21,061 nucleotides of DNA from a virus, in IMG/VR virus record IMGVR_UViG_3300032308_001506, positions 1-21,061 of that record, one strand, 5' to 3'. The notes beneath the pieces are model-generated. The model did no database searches, was not told the DNA's origin, and saw nothing but the letters and a program-made list of their open reading frames with translations. Both the position numbers and the translations under genes were made by a program. This document shows positions 1 to 10,677 of this stretch, piece after piece; the stretch's first letter is position 1; the number at the start of each line of letters is the position of its first letter.

Positions 1-1630
1 CGATCGCGACGCCGTCGATGTCTGCTCTCTTGGCCTGTGCTCCGATGGCGTAGTTGCCTCTGGTGTCTTTGCTTTTGGTCACATGATCAATCGTCAAAAT
101 GCAGGCGTTCTCCATCCGAAGTGGGCGAAGGATGAGCTGCGAGAATGTGGTGGCGTCCTTGTTCTTCTCTAAGTCGAGGCCGAGCAGGTTCATCGCTGCG
201 TTGACGCCGTCGATGACGATCAGGGATGGTTTGTGGATTTGGATTTCGCTTTGGATAACTTCGACGATGCCGCGTGTGATTCCTTCGTCTGGGTTTGCAT
301 ATCTGAAGTGGCGCAGCCCTGTTGCTGGAACTCCCATCGTCTTTAGCCGTCCTCTGATTCCGCGAGCGCTGTCTTCAAAGTCTAAATAAAAGACGCAGTG
401 GCCCTTCTCTAATTCTTGGCGAACGGCTTCGATTGCGATCCATGTCTTGCCGCTTTCGCTCTCACCGAAGATGGCGTTTATCTTGTTTGCATAAAGGATG
501 TGATTGCCGTCTTCGCGTTTAAGAATCGACGGCCCTGGTTCGTCTTCGAGCTGCATGTCGGTGATGTCTTGTGGGATCCATGAGCTCGTTGCGATCTCTT
601 CGTTCTCATCGTGAAGCTGCACGTGGCTCGGATTGTGGGCTTCTATCTGCTGCCAATCGGTTCGCAGTTCTCGGGATGCTCCGAAGCCCTGCGATCGCAA
701 ATGAGCCGCTGCTGCTCGGTAGTCACCTTTGTGTTCGATGTGGGTGTAGGCGGCGAACTTTGAATAACTGCTCTGTGCATCGAATATTGTTGACGTGCTG
801 AAAACAAAGAGTTTGCCGTTGCCGTTGAAGTTCGTCGTCGCCGATATGCCTTCGGACTTGCCGGGACGACGCCATGCTGTGGCTTCGCCCTTGCTGTAAA
901 CCTTGCTCCATCCAAGCGGTTCGAGAATCGATTCCCAAGTAACGGTTTCGTTGTAGGCATCGCCCGGTGTCTCTTGGCCATCTTTGCGTGGCTTTGTCTC
1001 TTCTTCAATCCATTCGGCCTTTGGCACTTCGTCGTAAAGGGCAAAGTATTGGTGAATAATCTGGCGCTCTGCGATCGTGAATGTCGGAATGTTCTCTATG
1101 GATCCTGCCGAGATATGCCACGCATTTCCCGATGGATGGCACTTGCCACCCGATGGCGCTGTGATCACGAATCCGCCTTCGCCTCTTGTTTCGGCTAGGC
1201 ATCCGCCGTCTTCTCCGGCTGCTTGTGCAATCTTCTGGTTGCCTGGAACTTTGCCATCCGAGATCCTATATAACCAATGAATGCCGCCCGACGGAGTTGT
1301 CTCCATGTATCCGTTGACGAGCTTTGTCCAAAGGTGGCCATGTTCGCTGCTTTCAAATATCTGTCTAAGTTCGACGTGCAATTTCTTTGCGACGGCTCTG
1401 CCTTCGAGCTCGAGCATTTCGAGATTGCCTGATACGGATCCGCAAATGATTCCGACGCCGTCTTGCTTCTTTCCAAACCAACCCATCAATTCTTCGGGTG
1501 TCGGTAGCCGCTTCTGGTAAGTCGTCCAGGCTGGCAATCCGGGGCGTTTGGATCCGTCTGCCGCTACTGGAACGGCGCAGATTCCTGCTGCTGCAAATCG
1601 CAGCGCTGTCGTAAGAATTGCATCAGCCAT
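1..1630 (-). CDS. Bifunctional primase-polymerase / RecA-fold ATPase (helicase), C-terminus cut by window edge
   Basis: The open frame starts at ATG 1630 and runs 543 codons without a stop to the left edge, so the C-terminus is missing. Residues 1-180 look like an archaeo-eukaryotic primase-polymerase domain: an acidic LELEG strand at 73-77 where the family usually has DxD, then TPSGGIHW (112-119) with the conserved His. Residues 385-543 look like a RepA-type RecA-fold ATPase: Walker A GESESGKT (389-396), Walker B LIVIDG (470-475) and TIDHVTK with His516. The likely role is primer synthesis and unwinding at phage replication forks. The start has a GGGGGAAAA ribosome site and overlaps the upstream stop by 8 nt. 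The two-domain assignment is strong; polymerase activity is inferred from family. Confidence 0.9.
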   Translation of the reverse strand, partial: MADAILTTALRFAAAGICAVPVAADGSKRPGLPAWTTYQKRLPTPEELMGWFGKKQDGVGIICGSVSGNLEMLELEGRAVAKKLHVELRQIFESSEHGHLWTKLVNGYMETTPSGGIHWLYRISDGKVPGNQKIAQAAGEDGGCLAETRGEGGFVITAPSGGKCHPSGNAWHISAGSIENIPTFTIAERQIIHQYFALYDEVPKAEWIEEETKPRKDGQETPGDAYNETVTWESILEPLGWSKVYSKGEATAWRRPGKSEGISATTNFNGNGKLFVFSTSTIFDAQSSYSKFAAYTHIEHKGDYRAAAAHLRSQGFGASRELRTDWQQIEAHNPSHVQLHDENEEIATSSWIPQDITDMQLEDEPGPSILKREDGNHILYANKINAIFGESESGKTWIAIEAVRQELEKGHCVFYLDFEDSARGIRGRLKTMGVPATGLRHFRYANPDEGITRGIVEVIQSEIQIHKPSLIVIDGVNAAMNLLGLDLEKNKDATTFSQLILRPLRMENACILTIDHVTKSKDTRGNYAIGAQAKRADIDGVAI

Positions 1631-1793
1631 TTTTCCCCCACCCACTACCCTTTAGAATTGTTGGAATTGCGCTATATCTTCTTTTCGCATCATCGCCACA
1701 GACTGGGCAGACAATTGTTTGTGGTGCTTTGCCCATTGCGTAAGTGCGGTCAAACAAACCATCAAGTTCACATTCAAATGAATAGTCGGGCAT
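1623..1793 (-). CDS. FmdB-type zinc-ribbon protein, 56 aa
   Basis: The frame could open further upstream, but the start used here forms a TAATG overlap with the stop of the methyltransferase C-terminal fragment, and the protein then begins MPDYSFEC, as FmdB-family proteins do. An early Cys lies in FEC and a second knuckle is CPVCGD; the first knuckle lacks its usual second Cys. The tail ends in a glycine-rich stretch, GSGWGKNG, as in other FmdB proteins. Family members are small and their function is poorly defined; a regulatory or nucleic-acid-binding role is a guess. It sits between the methyltransferase and the primase and shares 8 nt with the latter. Confidence 0.8.
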   Translation of the reverse strand: MPDYSFECELDGLFDRTYAMGKAPQTIVCPVCGDDAKRRYSAIPTILKGSGWGKNG

Positions 1794-2374
1794 TACTCCG
1801 CAACCATTCGATCGATAATCCATTGAACGACCGGCACTGCTACCGCGTTGCCCATTTGTTTATATCGATTCGAGTCAGCTTGGCCGTCTGTCCAGTTATC
1901 AGGAAACCCTTGAAGGCGTTCACACTCTGTCGGAGTTAGCCGGCGAACTACTGATTCTGAAGTTGCCATCATGTTGAAACGCGAACTATCACCAATGTTT
2001 GTCACTGCGATATTGCGCGAAATATCTGTTTCTTTCCAATTTTCGTCATTTTTTTCAGCCAAAGTTTTTTTGTAGGCTGTCGTTTCAGTCGCATTATTTA
2101 TTGGAAATACCATAGGCACATTTCCACCCCCTGTTCCATATCTTGAAATTACTGTTGGCACGATGCCATCTTCATAAACTCGAACATCATCGACGCGTGT
2201 TCCGTCAATAATTAAAACGCCTGTTGATTGCTTAGTTCCAGCTCTTAATGTGTGATGTGTTTCCGCAACCGAATCGTTGAATTCGTCATAGGCTAGAATT
2301 AAAAACTGATCATTGCTTGTTGCCAATGTAAAACTTTTATCGCTATACATCAATCCCTTCCCCCCCCCGCACAT
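1793..2374 (-). CDS. dcm: C5 cytosine-specific DNA methyltransferase, C-terminal fragment (frameshifted)
   Basis: This frame carries the C-terminal hallmarks of a phage Dcm-like methyltransferase: RRLTPTECERLQGFPDNW (residues 144-161) and the motif X segment QMGNAVAVPVVQW (173-185). It lacks the AdoMet and catalytic motifs, which are in the separate upstream frame. The ATG at 2374 has no ribosome site and falls just before a run of nine G, so it is probably not a true start; the fragment most likely continues a longer protein. Its first half has short repeats of the type TLxA followed by a glycine- or serine-rich linker, typical of the variable target-recognition region in phage enzymes. It is expressed only if the frame is restored. 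Confidence 0.75.
   Translation of the reverse strand: MCGGGKGLMYSDKSFTLATSNDQFLILAYDEFNDSVAETHHTLRAGTKQSTGVLIIDGTRVDDVRVYEDGIVPTVISRYGTGGGNVPMVFPINNATETTAYKKTLAEKNDENWKETDISRNIAVTNIGDSSRFNMMATSESVVRRLTPTECERLQGFPDNWTDGQADSNRYKQMGNAVAVPVVQWIIDRMVAE
2360..2368 (-). repeat. G9 homopolymer tract inside the methyltransferase
   Basis: Nine consecutive C on the plus strand (G on the coding strand) sit exactly where the coding frame changes between the middle segment (ending in REGCAGG) and the C-terminal fragment (GKGLMYS). Ten G would join them in frame. Tracts of this kind slip during replication and are also prone to sequencing miscounts. Confidence 0.9.
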
Positions 2375-2525: not shown

Positions 2526-3341
2526 TTAACTTTCGTGAACCACAAGATCAGTTGCATCTTTGTAATCCCTCGCCTTTAGAGCGGATGAATTTGAATCATT
2601 TGCATAATCACCAAAACCGCGCTGGCGAAATGTCATTGTGTCATGCGCTCTTGAAGCGTTAAGAGTTGGACTTATTGGTTCGGTTGGGAAGTCGTAGAGC
2701 TCAAAGTTTCCAGCGCCGACTGAAGCATCGGTGGCAATGTTTTTTCTCTTCGATTCGCTCTTCGCAAGATGCCCTGCGCGGCCTTCGCTGATAGCGAGTA
2801 TTTCTTCAGGTGCTCTCCCTGTGTTTCCAAGACATCCGACAATGAAGACACGCCTGCGTCTTTGGGGGACTCCAAAGTGCTGAGCATCAAGCACCCTGTA
2901 TGCGACGCGATACCCGCGCTCGACCAACGCTTCAAGAACGACGGCCATGTCTTTTCCGTGATTGCTGGAAAGTAAACCAGGGACGTTTTCGAGGATAAAG
3001 TTTTGCGCTCTTGTTTCGTCAAGCAATCGGCAGATTTCCCAGAATAATCCTGATCTAGCACCACCCAGTCCTGCTCGTTTTCCAGCCACTGATAAGTCTT
3101 GACAAGGAAATCCACCCGTGATGATTCCTCGTTCTGGTTTGAATCCTGCTGCGATGAGTTGTTCACCAGTTACCCCCGTTATGTCGCCAAAAAGTTTTGA
3201 ATCAGGAAAGTGCTTGGCGAGAATTGCACTTGCCTTCTTGTCTATTTCAACCGATGCAACGACTTTTACTCCAGCTCGTTCAAGTGCTAAGTCAAAACCA
3301 CCAACACCAGCAAATAATGAGACAGCCGTTCTTTGTTCCAT
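2526..3341 (-). CDS. dcm: C5 cytosine-specific DNA methyltransferase, N-terminal fragment (frameshifted)
   Basis: The 271-residue frame has the catalytic half of a C5 cytosine methyltransferase: motif I FAGVGGFDLALERAG (10-24), motif IV GGFPCQDLS with catalytic Cys80, motif VI ENV (118-120) and motif VIII QRRRR (160-164). It transfers a methyl group from S-adenosylmethionine to C5 of cytosine, probably to shield phage DNA from host restriction. The start has a GGGGGTAAT ribosome site. The frame ends in HES-stop where homologues run on; the continuation VKRAQNVDDFETW lies one base out of register immediately downstream. Motifs IX-X are in a second fragment. As sequenced it would make a protein without motif X and should be inactive unless the frame is corrected. 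Confidence 0.85.
   Translation of the reverse strand: MEQRTAVSLFAGVGGFDLALERAGVKVVASVEIDKKASAILAKHFPDSKLFGDITGVTGEQLIAAGFKPERGIITGGFPCQDLSVAGKRAGLGGARSGLFWEICRLLDETRAQNFILENVPGLLSSNHGKDMAVVLEALVERGYRVAYRVLDAQHFGVPQRRRRVFIVGCLGNTGRAPEEILAISEGRAGHLAKSESKRKNIATDASVGAGNFELYDFPTEPISPTLNASRAHDTMTFRQRGFGDYANDSNSSALKARDYKDATDLVVHES
2672..3166 (-). CDS. Overlapping 164-codon reading frame within the methyltransferase gene
   Basis: A long frame lies wholly inside the N-terminal methyltransferase fragment, on the same strand in another register. Its product is hydrophilic, and the C-terminal part reads ESPKDAGVSSLSDVLET, then LSAKAAQGILRRA, then a basic and leucine-rich tail. From memory, segments of the type LSxKAxxGILRRAxxRGKxLP recur in predicted proteins of many unrelated phages, which would argue for selection on this frame rather than chance. 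No clear ribosome site precedes the ATG. It may be a genuine overlapping gene or a by-product of conserved methyltransferase sequence. Function unknown. Confidence 0.35.
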   Translation of the reverse strand: MNNSSQQDSNQNEESSRVDFLVKTYQWLENEQDWVVLDQDYSGKSADCLTKQERKTLSSKTSLVYFPAITEKTWPSFLKRWSSAGIASHTGCLMLSTLESPKDAGVSSLSDVLETQGEHLKKYSLSAKAAQGILRRANRREKTLPPMLQSALETLSSTTSQPNQ

Positions 3342-3938: not shown

Positions 3939-4048
3939 TCGCTTTCCCCCTCTGCTTCGGTGTTGCTTGTTTGTTGGTTTTCCAACGCTATTGGCGGATT
4001 GCTTTCCGCGATTTCTTTCATAATGTCCGAGACGCTTTGCTCGATCAT
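3935..4048 (-). CDS. Small acidic protein, 37 aa
   Basis: A short frame fills the space between the Cas4-like nuclease and the ssDNA-binding protein, joined to both by ATGA overlaps, which is why I accept it despite its size. It begins MIEQSVSDIMKEIAE and ends in a Glu-rich tail, EAEGESE. An alternative ATG seven codons upstream lies deeper in the nuclease gene and is less likely. No recognisable family; it may be an accessory to the flanking recombination proteins. Confidence 0.55.
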   Translation of the reverse strand: MIEQSVSDIMKEIAESNPPIALENQQTSNTEAEGESE

Positions 4049-4782
4049 GGCGTGGTATCTCCATTGCATGCCTTTGATAAATCTTTACTGAAAGGCTGGA
4101 AATAAGGGCAGTAATTGCAAAGCCGATCAGGGCTTGCAGGAATCAATTGCCAGAGTTCTGGACTGTTCTCAACGTCGACGGTTGCAAGCAATCCGTAAAC
4201 AGTGTCAAGTCTGCCTAGAGCTGCAATCGCAACCGACTCATCGTAATCGTGAAGTTCCACATGCAGATCATCGAGACTGCCACTTGTAGGCAAATAAACA
4301 AGCGCGACTTGTTTGACTTCGGCTCCTTCTTGTGCCTTGCCGTAGCCGTAAAGTTGGACTTGCACGAGCTGTTGCTCGGTTGCCCCTTCTTTGCGTCGCT
4401 TCTCGAGTCCTGAACTGCCTGTGGTTTTCCAATCCATAACAATTCCGCGACGCTTGTCGAATAAGTCCACTGTGCCACTGAGATTGGCGCGAATAGTTAC
4501 CTTTTGTTCGACTTCGAAGTCTTCAAGTTTGCCGAAGATTTCCGCCAGATGTGCATGGATTGCTGTTCCAACCTGCGCCGCCCAGTTTCCACCGCCCGGG
4601 ATTTCATTTGCTTTATCCCAGTCGAGAAGTTTGTAAGCGATGCGCCTAGTGCATGAGTGACCTATCTCGGATGGCCCGATATAAACCTGCTTTGATCGTG
4701 GCGTCCATGTGCCAGCCTTCGTGATGATTGCTGCTAATTCATCGCCGAGGGCTTTACCTGGTGCGTGCGGTGATACGAACAT
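4045..4782 (-). CDS. Cas4/RecB-like PD-(D/E)XK exonuclease with Fe-S cysteines
   Basis: The 245 aa protein has the RecB-family nuclease signature in order: GTAIHAHL (His76), SGTVDLFD (Asp106), MDWKTTG (Asp117, Lys119) and QLYGY (Gln143, Tyr147). Four cysteines, one near the N-terminus (Cys44) and three near the C-terminus (Cys222, Cys225, Cys239), are arranged as in the Fe-S nucleases Cas4 and AddB. No CRISPR array or other cas gene is present, so a phage recombination or DNA-processing role is more likely than spacer acquisition. It follows a YqaJ-type accessory gene and precedes the ssDNA-binding gene, consistent with an exonuclease/annealing recombination module. Confidence 0.85.
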   Translation of the reverse strand: MFVSPHAPGKALGDELAAIITKAGTWTPRSKQVYIGPSEIGHSCTRRIAYKLLDWDKANEIPGGGNWAAQVGTAIHAHLAEIFGKLEDFEVEQKVTIRANLSGTVDLFDKRRGIVMDWKTTGSSGLEKRRKEGATEQQLVQVQLYGYGKAQEGAEVKQVALVYLPTSGSLDDLHVELHDYDESVAIAALGRLDTVYGLLATVDVENSPELWQLIPASPDRLCNYCPYFQPFSKDLSKACNGDTTP

Positions 4783-8387: not shown

Positions 8388-8428
8388 ATGCCCCCCATCG
8401 CCTTTTATCGGCAGTGGGGGGTATTTTT
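8388..8428. terminator. Bidirectional rho-independent terminator between convergent operons
   Basis: ATGCCCCCCA pairs with TGGGGGGTAT (one G-T pair), extended inside by GC/GC across one mismatch, with a loop around CTTTTATCG. The plus strand ends in TATTTTTAT. The minus-strand reading overlaps the epimerase stop and has a poorer U run. It stops the plus-strand operon and probably the late minus-strand operon. Confidence 0.85.
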
Positions 8429-9290
8429 ATTCTGCAAGCGCTCTGGCTATTCCTTCTTCCAGAGTAATTTTTGGCTCATAAATCTGCAACATCTTTATCG
8501 GATCGCCGACTCGATATTCGACTCCGCTTGGCTTTCCTGGGTGCTTCTTGATTGGAGCTAAGTATCCCTGCGCGAGCATAATCATCTCTGCGAGCTGGAT
8601 GAATGAAGTCGCACGCCCGGTGCAAAGGTTCAAAGTTTGGATGTTATTTGTGATCGCTTCGAATGTGGCTGCAACAACGTCGTCGATGTGGATAAAGTCG
8701 CGGACTTGCTCGCCGGTTCCCCATACTTCGAACGGATCCATCTTGGCCTTGCCGCGTGCGATCAAGGATGGGAATGGGTAATCGAGCGCTTGGTCACTGC
8801 CGTAGCCGCTAAATGGTCGCAAGACGTGAACTTTGATGCCTTCTTCTCTGGCATATTGGGCCAAAGTTTCGCCTGTTAATTTCGCCCATCCGTAGCTGAA
8901 ATCTGGCGTCCTTATGTGATCTAGATTGATATCGGGTTCCCGAAGTCGTTGCTTGTAGGCAGCCTTCTGCAAGTAGATTGGGTAGGCGGCAGAACTGCTG
9001 TAATAGACGAGGTGTTTTGGCCTAGTTCTTACCGCCCATTGAAACATGTCGCTGTCGATCGCGAGGTCGCTGGCAACAGCCAAAGGGTTGCCTTCAATCG
9101 TGGCGCGGCCGCCGACAATCGCGGCGAGGTGAATAACGACGTCGTATCTAGTGTCGTCCTTCTTGAAGAAATCCCTGCAATCGATTCCGTTTGCGATGTC
9201 GATGCCGGTGATGTCATGGCCTTTGTCGTCTAATGCTCTGTGAAAGGCGCGGCCGACGAAGCCGGCGTCTCCGGTTATTAAAATCTTCAT
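8427..9290 (-). CDS. NAD-dependent epimerase/dehydratase (extended SDR)
   Basis: The start is placed at the internal ATG that gives an ATGA overlap; a second ATG three codons upstream is possible. Extended short-chain dehydrogenase motifs are intact: the Rossmann loop TGDAGFVG (the first Gly is Asp), VIHLAAIVGG, YYSSSAAYP with catalytic Ser, YGWAK with Tyr and Lys, and RDFIHIDDV. Such enzymes convert nucleotide sugars (GDP-fucose synthase or UDP-glucose epimerase types). With two adjacent glycosyltransferases it forms a sugar-modification cassette, possibly for tail or virion proteins. Substrate cannot be told. Confidence 0.9.
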   Translation of the reverse strand: MKILITGDAGFVGRAFHRALDDKGHDITGIDIANGIDCRDFFKKDDTRYDVVIHLAAIVGGRATIEGNPLAVASDLAIDSDMFQWAVRTRPKHLVYYSSSAAYPIYLQKAAYKQRLREPDINLDHIRTPDFSYGWAKLTGETLAQYAREEGIKVHVLRPFSGYGSDQALDYPFPSLIARGKAKMDPFEVWGTGEQVRDFIHIDDVVAATFEAITNNIQTLNLCTGRATSFIQLAEMIMLAQGYLAPIKKHPGKPSGVEYRVGDPIKMLQIYEPKITLEEGIARALAE

Positions 9291-10003
9291 ATAAGCCATT
9301 CTGCCAGATATCTGTCGCTTCCTGATTCGGCCTTTGCCATTGCCTGGTCAATGCTAAAGACGAAGCGATCATCTGCTTCCAGCGCTGCCCCGATGTGGTG
9401 AAGGATCGCCTTCTTTGCGATCGGGAATGGGCGGCGCTTGCTCTTGCCTTCTGTGGGGGTTTCGTAGCTCTCGTCGTGGATAAGAGCGCTCTCCTTGATC
9501 AAGGGCCAAATATGAGCTGCAAGCCAGTCCTGATCTTGCGTGTAATAATCTCTGGCTTCTTCTGTTTCCTTCAAATCGTCCGGAATCGCTTTGGTTCTTG
9601 CTGCGAACATGCCGGCGCTGATCTGATAATTGTGGCCTGTCGGGTGATCTTTCATAATGTGGAAATCGAGGCCGCTTGCTAGAAATTCTTCGTGTGCAAT
9701 CCGTTCTCGGTGCGTGAGCCTGGCATCCGCATCGCGGCTTAAAACCACGTCGAATTCGCGATCTATCAAAGCCTGAAATCTCCAGAGTTTGGCCCGGTGG
9801 TCTTCGGGGCCTTCTTCTTCTACGAGCTGGACATAGGGGAAGAGGCGAAGGGTTTGCTTAATGGATTCGGGAACGCTTGGCCCGGTGTAAAAGCGAAGCG
9901 TAAATCCTTTGAAATGTCTGCCTGCCAGAATTGCGTTCTTGATCGCACCGATCGTGTATCGCTCTTCGCTGCCATATAACGAGTAGGCGATGAGCTGCTT
10001 CAT
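9287..10003 (-). CDS. Glycosyltransferase-like protein, 238 aa
   Basis: The N-terminus (MKQLIAYSLYGSEERYTIGAI) resembles a GT-A nucleotide-sugar fold. LSRDADARL (near residue 90) gives a DxD metal/sugar-binding motif. Later segments include HNYQISAGMFAART and YYTQDQDWLAAHIWP, as in family 8-like or Mnn-type transferases. It lies between a second glycosyltransferase and the epimerase, all linked by ATGA overlaps. Acceptor and donor are unknown. Confidence 0.8.
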   Translation of the reverse strand: MKQLIAYSLYGSEERYTIGAIKNAILAGRHFKGFTLRFYTGPSVPESIKQTLRLFPYVQLVEEEGPEDHRAKLWRFQALIDREFDVVLSRDADARLTHRERIAHEEFLASGLDFHIMKDHPTGHNYQISAGMFAARTKAIPDDLKETEEARDYYTQDQDWLAAHIWPLIKESALIHDESYETPTEGKSKRRPFPIAKKAILHHIGAALEADDRFVFSIDQAMAKAESGSDRYLAEWLI

Positions 10004-10677
10004 TGCCTTAGCTTGTTCTTCAATAATTCGTAGGCTTCGCTCTGAATATAGTTCTGATAGGCGAGCGCGTCGAATGCGTATATTTCGGTTGCGTTGACTT
10101 CTTTGTATCCTTCATCCCATTCGGCTTTGCCTGCAATTGGATGCATGTGCTCGACAATAACGTCGCCGATATAAGTCAGCGCCCCTAAGTCTTCGCCTAG
10201 TTTTTTCCAGAAGTTGTCTAAATATAAATGCTTTAATTTTGGCGGAACCATTCCATCGAGGGCTTTGACGATGTCGCTTGTCATTGCGATCATGGTGGGA
10301 AGTCGCTCGCCCTGAAGCAAGTCGTTTCCGTAGGCCAGCGACGGTCGCCTTTGCATCGCCTGGATAAGAATTGCATCCCAGCCGGCTGTGCGTGGGCGGT
10401 GGTCGTCGCCCAGGAAGGCGAAGTATTTATATTCGCCCTTCTTTACAATCGCACTCGCAGCTCTGTTGATCGGATAAGCCATGCCCCGGGTTTCGTTCTC
10501 GATGGTCATGCATTTGTCTTTGCCGACTTGCGTTTCGTAGGCGTCGCGCTCTGGGTCATTTGCATCAATGACGAAGAGGATGTCTGAATTCGTGGAAAGT
10601 TTTTCGTGCTCTGCCAGCAATTCGACGGCGTTGCCTGGGCGTCCTCTGGTGGGGACGAGGATAATCATTTCCTTCAT
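10000..10677 (-). CDS. Glycosyltransferase family 2-like protein, 225 aa
   Basis: Starts MIILVPTRGRPGNAVELL, the classical entry of a family 2 GT-A fold, with FVIDANDPE and a metal-binding-like FLGDDHRP in the middle. A later segment, DNFWKKLGEDLGALTYIGDV, would bind the acceptor. Similar proteins are common near the lysis genes of actinophages. Both ends are ATGA overlaps. Donor unknown. Confidence 0.82.
   Translation of the reverse strand: MKEMIILVPTRGRPGNAVELLAEHEKLSTNSDILFVIDANDPERDAYETQVGKDKCMTIENETRGMAYPINRAASAIVKKGEYKYFAFLGDDHRPRTAGWDAILIQAMQRRPSLAYGNDLLQGERLPTMIAMTSDIVKALDGMVPPKLKHLYLDNFWKKLGEDLGALTYIGDVIVEHMHPIAGKAEWDEGYKEVNATEIYAFDALAYQNYIQSEAYELLKNKLRQ

Follow-up and report, generated by a model that had tools for sequence, protein, structure and literature searches.

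A second reading frame in a phage C5 methyltransferase gene

Does a phage methyltransferase gene carry a second gene in another reading frame, and if so, what might the second product be? This question was raised by a virus record of IMG/VR (IMGVR_UViG_3300032308_001506; 21,061 nt), which was analysed over its whole length and is called the window here. A sequence-only reading of the window had claimed a 164-codon overlapping frame at 2672-3166. This frame is indeed present, on the minus strand and inside the ORF of a C5 cytosine methyltransferase (2526-3341, minus strand, 271 aa). The methyltransferase frame, referred to below as frame 0, matched PF00145 in Pfam (6.4e-56, residues 6-175) and phrog_116 in PHROGs (5e-66), and it contains motifs I-VIII, including PCQ and ENV, as expected for a C5 methyltransferase; it is alpha-like in its extent. 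The nested ORF (2672-3166, minus strand) lies in the +1 frame of the methyltransferase and starts at a GTG (3164-3166, minus strand); most relatives keep this start, either as GTG at the same position or as ATG a codon further on. Its 164-aa translation includes ESPKDAGVSSLSDVLET and LSAKAAQGILRRA. Motif VIII of the enzyme, FGVPQRRRRVFIV, and the nested sequence ESPKDAGVSSLSD are read from the same bases (2838-2876, minus strand), and the nested protein has a conserved core, LSDVLE..KYSLSAKAAQGILRRA..LPPMLQSAL, encoded at 2711-2842 (minus strand). The methyltransferase is flanked by genes for a PD-(D/E)XK nuclease (4045-4782, minus strand) and a small zinc-ribbon protein (1623-1823, minus strand).

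Stop codons are depleted from the nested frame

Openness of the nested frame was investigated by resampling the synonymous codons of each gene from its own usage and counting +1 stops over the tested stretch. Relatives were gathered with the methyltransferase protein as well as with the nested protein, so the set was not selected solely for an open nested frame. In the window alone, we observed no +1 stop where 5.0 were expected. Across 96 close relatives, the genes contained 0.20 +1 stops on average compared to 5.2 expected, and the +1 frame was fully open in 81 of the 96 compared to 1.6 expected, which bears out the anticipated stop depletion across methyltransferases. The third frame (+2) of the same 96 relatives served as a control and showed 7.6 stops compared to 7.9 expected. 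Moreover, the depletion was confined to the overlap: +1 stops amounted to 0.18, 0.00 and 0.00 of expectation in three successive segments inside it, and to 1.7× and 1.3× expectation upstream and downstream of the nested ORF in the same genes. This pattern was unchanged when the analysis used 15 clusters below 70% identity. Conversely, when codons were resampled so as to preserve the nested protein, frame 0 was open in 71 of 71 genes compared to 21.4 expected. Chance or composition as the cause of the open frame was thus ruled out by codon resampling together with the third-frame and flanking controls.

Both frames appear to be under selection

Because of the +1 geometry, every third-position change in the methyltransferase alters a second codon position in the nested frame, so that the overlap can be tested cleanly. 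At amino acids shared between relatives, the same codon was used in 39% of cases upstream, 70% in the core and 37% downstream, rising to 81-86% at codons +20 to +60 after motif VIII (numbered from the D of DAQHFGVPQ in that motif). The synonymous constraint looked for in the overlap was therefore found, methyltransferase synonymous variation being strongly reduced there. At codons +40 to +60, identity was 0.60-0.68 for the nested protein and 0.24-0.28 for the methyltransferase. Divergence at methyltransferase codon positions 1, 2 and 3 was 0.29, 0.20 and 0.64 outside the core and 0.59, 0.41 and 0.26 within it. The free position in the core is thus the wobble position of the nested frame, a pattern that a nucleotide-level signal would not produce.

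Both frames are therefore open beyond expectation, synonymous change is reduced only within the overlap, and the overlap has the periodicity of the nested frame. The earlier proposal that the region is dual coding if divergent homologues keep the frame open is supported by the open frames, the codon constraint and the phage homologues described below; as judged from comparative sequence data, 2672-3166 is almost certainly dual coding, with both frames under selection.

The nested start is preceded by a mobile Shine-Dalgarno signal

In the window, a Shine-Dalgarno (SD)-like GGGGGT (3172-3177, minus strand) lies upstream of the GTG, with a duplex energy of -9.9 kcal/mol. The nested ORF opens right after an in-frame stop, either with this GTG or, in other lineages, with an ATG one or five codons later, and the SD sequence shifts along with the start codon (GGGGGTAACAG-GTG, AGGAGGTAACAGGAA-ATG and AAGGAGGTAACAGGAA-ATG). 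Relatives carrying AGGAGGTAACAGGAAATG and AAGGAGGTAACAGGAAATG reached -11.6 and -12.2 kcal/mol, and the median was -9.3 kcal/mol at nested starts compared to -2.8 kcal/mol at other +1 ATG or GTG codons. Some distant relatives have a weak SD (P1, -5.6; a Caulobacter phage, -3.6). An SD that moves with the start codon and forms a strong duplex favours a separate product over a frameshift fusion.

The nested core is widespread in phages and plasmids and accompanies the methyltransferase

The nested sequence had been noted as a recurrent phage pattern, and this proved to be correct. Searches with the core (tblastn) returned 123-147 phage records, essentially all with the match beneath a methyltransferase gene, and homologues of the nested product occur in hundreds of phages. 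The core was also found in 531 plasmid records, which are mostly from E. coli and resemble P1 in size and annotation. It lay in +1 relative to motifs I-VIII in 250 of 251 fetched loci, P1 dmt among them, and no stand-alone or in-frame copy was found among the 251. In Faecalibacterium phage FP_Toutatis (L301), the core appears to be in frame only because of an upstream indel. Thibault gp104 was considered as a stand-alone nested core and rejected, the region having methylase pieces around HNH insertions; the methylase has been stated to be absent there (PMC3706429). In Omegavirus mycobacteriophages (L395-L398), HNH-bearing insertions break the methylase gene; the annotated gene product gp104 of Thibault corresponds to the nested core.

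The nested frame of the window matched phrog_16143 (3.7e-10, profile positions 19-133 of 139). In PHROGs, phrog_16143 and phrog_1008 are both labelled DNA methyltransferase; both are profiles of the nested frame, and the label conceals its out-of-frame position relative to the enzyme. No match for the nested protein was found in Pfam, NCBIfam or PADLOC.

A sister group carries a longer nested ORF

In a sister group (L304-L383), the nested protein has repeated WPTP and a terminal LNPxWVEWLMGFPxGW, and these WPTP-type proteins matched phrog_1008 at 2e-25 to 1e-59. Their +1 ORF, of about 200-370 codons, contained 0.04 stops compared to 3.5 expected (76 viral loci). In many members, such as L304 and L313, the methyltransferase sequence WPEVPxYxDV encodes a GGAGGT site and an ATG. 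Profile alignment of the nested proteins of both groups scored 107 against at most 17 for decoys, a score that is inflated because both overlap homologous enzymes. The similarity of the phrog_1008-type protein to motif IX is suggestive only (hhalign score of 18.0, compared to 9.6±2.1 and a maximum of 21.8 for decoys), and its structural model was of low confidence (mean pLDDT of 59).

In Mycobacterium phage Dylan (L215:1712-2663), genes 7 and 6 overlap and are both annotated as DNA methylase. Dylan gp7 comprises motifs I-VIII, frame 0 stopping after motif VIII. Dylan gp6 is read in the +1 frame and ends in motif IX-X-like sequence; it matches phrog_1008 (1e-59) and, over motifs IX-X, the C5 profile phrog_116 (9e-6).

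The enzyme is split in most relatives

In the window, the C-terminal part of the methyltransferase, with motifs IX-X, forms a separate +1 ORF (1793-2374, minus strand; PF00145, 5.6e-17, residues 95-190). This part was separate from alpha in 82 of 95 scorable relatives and formed one ORF with alpha in the other 13. In 60 it was a separate +1 ORF, the class of the window, which in most cases begins at a TTG or ATG lying a few codons ahead of the stop of frame 0; in 10, several of which have an ATGA or TTGA overlap, it lay in +2; and in 12 it was separate within frame 0. At the conserved alpha/C-part junction of the window (2526-2545, minus strand), a TTG-initiated +1 ORF (LWFTKVKRAQ...) overlaps the frame-0 stop (HES-TAA). 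Conservation of this junction in about 60 relatives points either to recoding at this site or to enzymes that are split by nature. The C-part of the window also changes frame at runs of C at 2360-2368 (9 C) and 2478-2485 (8 C), which may be sequence errors or a variable tract.

C5 enzymes such as M.AquI and M.EcoHK31I function as two chains, and C5 fragments reassemble best if the C-terminal one begins past motif VIII but ahead of the recognition domain (PMC3404938). The nested piece sits at this very boundary. The two subunits of M.AquI are split between motifs I-VIII and IX-X (PMC3404938), the same split as that between alpha and the C-part in the 82 relatives; unlike M.AquI, the window family has a predicted third, nested product.

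M.EcoHK31I offers a closer likeness for the nested ORF. In that enzyme, the small chain comes from an alternative frame within the large gene, and the window likewise has a small ORF nested out of frame in the large-subunit gene. According to the published description, the large polypeptide of M.EcoHK31I (YGGCCR) contains motifs I-VIII, X and the TRD and the small one contains motif IX (PMC3404938). In contrast, motif IX of the window (RRLTPTECERLQGFPDNW) lies in the ORF at 1793-2374 and is missing from the nested protein, which has the post-VIII segment instead; likewise, motif X belongs to the large subunit in M.EcoHK31I and to the C-part ORF in the window. The window was not assigned to the M.EcoHK31I type because its nested protein lacks motif IX; it is a variant of that arrangement, not a member. 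The phrog_1008-type relatives do fit: their frame 0 has motif X, and their nested frame encodes the motif IX-like LNPxWVEWLMGFPxGW.

The nested protein resembles a displaced part of the enzyme

AlphaFold2 predicted a helical core in the nested protein of the window (residues 121-160, pLDDT of 90-97 over most of it), the first approximately 60 residues being predicted as disordered; the pTM of the model was 0.36. In ordinary single-frame C5 enzymes, a segment such as KLGDILERLVPDKYTLSDKLWAGHQRRKAEHK directly follows motif VIII. Alignment of the nested core SLSDVLETQGEHLKKYSLSAKAAQGILRRANRREK with this canonical segment by hhalign scored 31.4 (P = 7.8e-5; 200 column-shuffled decoys, 11.0±2.0, maximum of 18.7) against a profile of six sequences with little diversity (Neff of 1.8), and by HMMER the match had an E value of 0.1-2. 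The alignment covers 37 columns at 35% identity, at the corresponding place in the enzyme; the frame-0 sequence at that place scored 11.6, which is decoy level. A fold search of the PDB with the nested protein model returned no relative, and a search of a viral library returned just two hits, one of them an annotated fragment of the nested frame and the other a phage methyltransferase. Taken together with Dylan gp6, the similarity of the core to the post-VIII segment suggests a displaced enzyme part and not a wholly de novo protein. The nested protein is thus probably a small beta-like partner subunit of a split C5 methyltransferase, and we infer that it may be made, bind the alpha chain and be needed for methylation or tune it. 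In some relatives, namely P1 dmt and single-ORF enzymes such as L023 and L033, frame 0 has the later motifs as well, so that in these the nested protein is not required just to round off the set of motifs.

A possible origin and function of the overlap

The following scheme would account for these observations. Directed by an SD site that forms part of the coding sequence of the methyltransferase, ribosomes would begin at GTG 3166 within the mRNA of the enzyme and produce a protein of about 164 residues in the +1 frame. Its helical C-terminal core would be the piece located after motif VIII in single-chain C5 enzymes, at the start of the DNA-recognition domain. This piece was probably shifted into +1 by an ancestral frameshift or deletion immediately past motif VIII, and would have persisted there as a separate polypeptide as frame 0 was rewritten across the same bases. 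Extended to a large phage C5 class, P1 Dmt included, the scheme proposes a catalytic chain plus a nested chain that supplies the ancestral recognition-domain piece in trans, with a single ancestral shift to +1 followed by joint selection, and with TGVTGEQ (in the window) or WPEVPxYxDV (in the sister group) conserved in part because they spell out the hidden gene's start and its ribosome-binding site. We put this general account forward tentatively, at somewhat short of even chances.

The nested gene could also be real and its product have an unrelated job, in anti-restriction, regulation or another host interaction, the overlap serving only to save space and link expression. Conservation of the nested frame even where one ORF carries the later motifs in frame 0 (L023, L033) is consistent with this notion, as is the lack of a Pfam, NCBIfam, PADLOC or PDB fold match; nonetheless, we consider it rather unlikely, since the core was never found apart from a methyltransferase (250/251 in +1) and is collinear with the canonical post-VIII segment, and since Dylan gp6 has motif IX-X within the same +1 protein. 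Less probable still is programmed frameshifting near motif VIII, which would fuse motifs I-VIII to the +1 core and so restore a canonical enzyme, leaving the upstream nested ORF incidental. Such a fusion would agree with the nature of the core, which represents, in +1, the sequence that continues motif VIII in canonical enzymes, but stops are also scarce in the upstream half of the nested ORF (0.00 and 0.18 of expectation), codons there are constrained, the SD and start of the ORF are conserved, frame 0 is kept open beyond motif VIII, and motif VIII has no obviously invariant slip heptamer. A noncoding shadow ORF, open through the composition and codon bias of a conserved gene, can practically be dismissed: long open +1 frames with few expected stops are possible in high-GC cellular relatives, but at about 50% GC the nested frame is almost free of stops where five would be expected, the third frame behaves as expected, the nested protein is better conserved than the enzyme, and the codon periodicity is inverted.

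Hundreds of phage methyltransferase genes, P1's too, together with more than 500 plasmid records that are mostly P1-like, appear to conceal a second conserved gene that is currently unannotated or mislabelled. If so, the cloning and testing of such enzymes would change, and the hidden gene could account for some enzymes that look inactive or broken. The two genes would form a deeply conserved overlapping pair in which selection can be measured on each frame. The openly licensed papers that were searched yielded no account of a gene nested in a phage methyltransferase.

Elsewhere on the minus strand of the window, we observed an epimerase gene (8427-9299; PF01370, 1e-34) and, at 10000-10677, weak similarity to a TET-associated glycosyltransferase (PF20691, 2e-4, below the cut-off); these are possibly DNA or surface modification genes.
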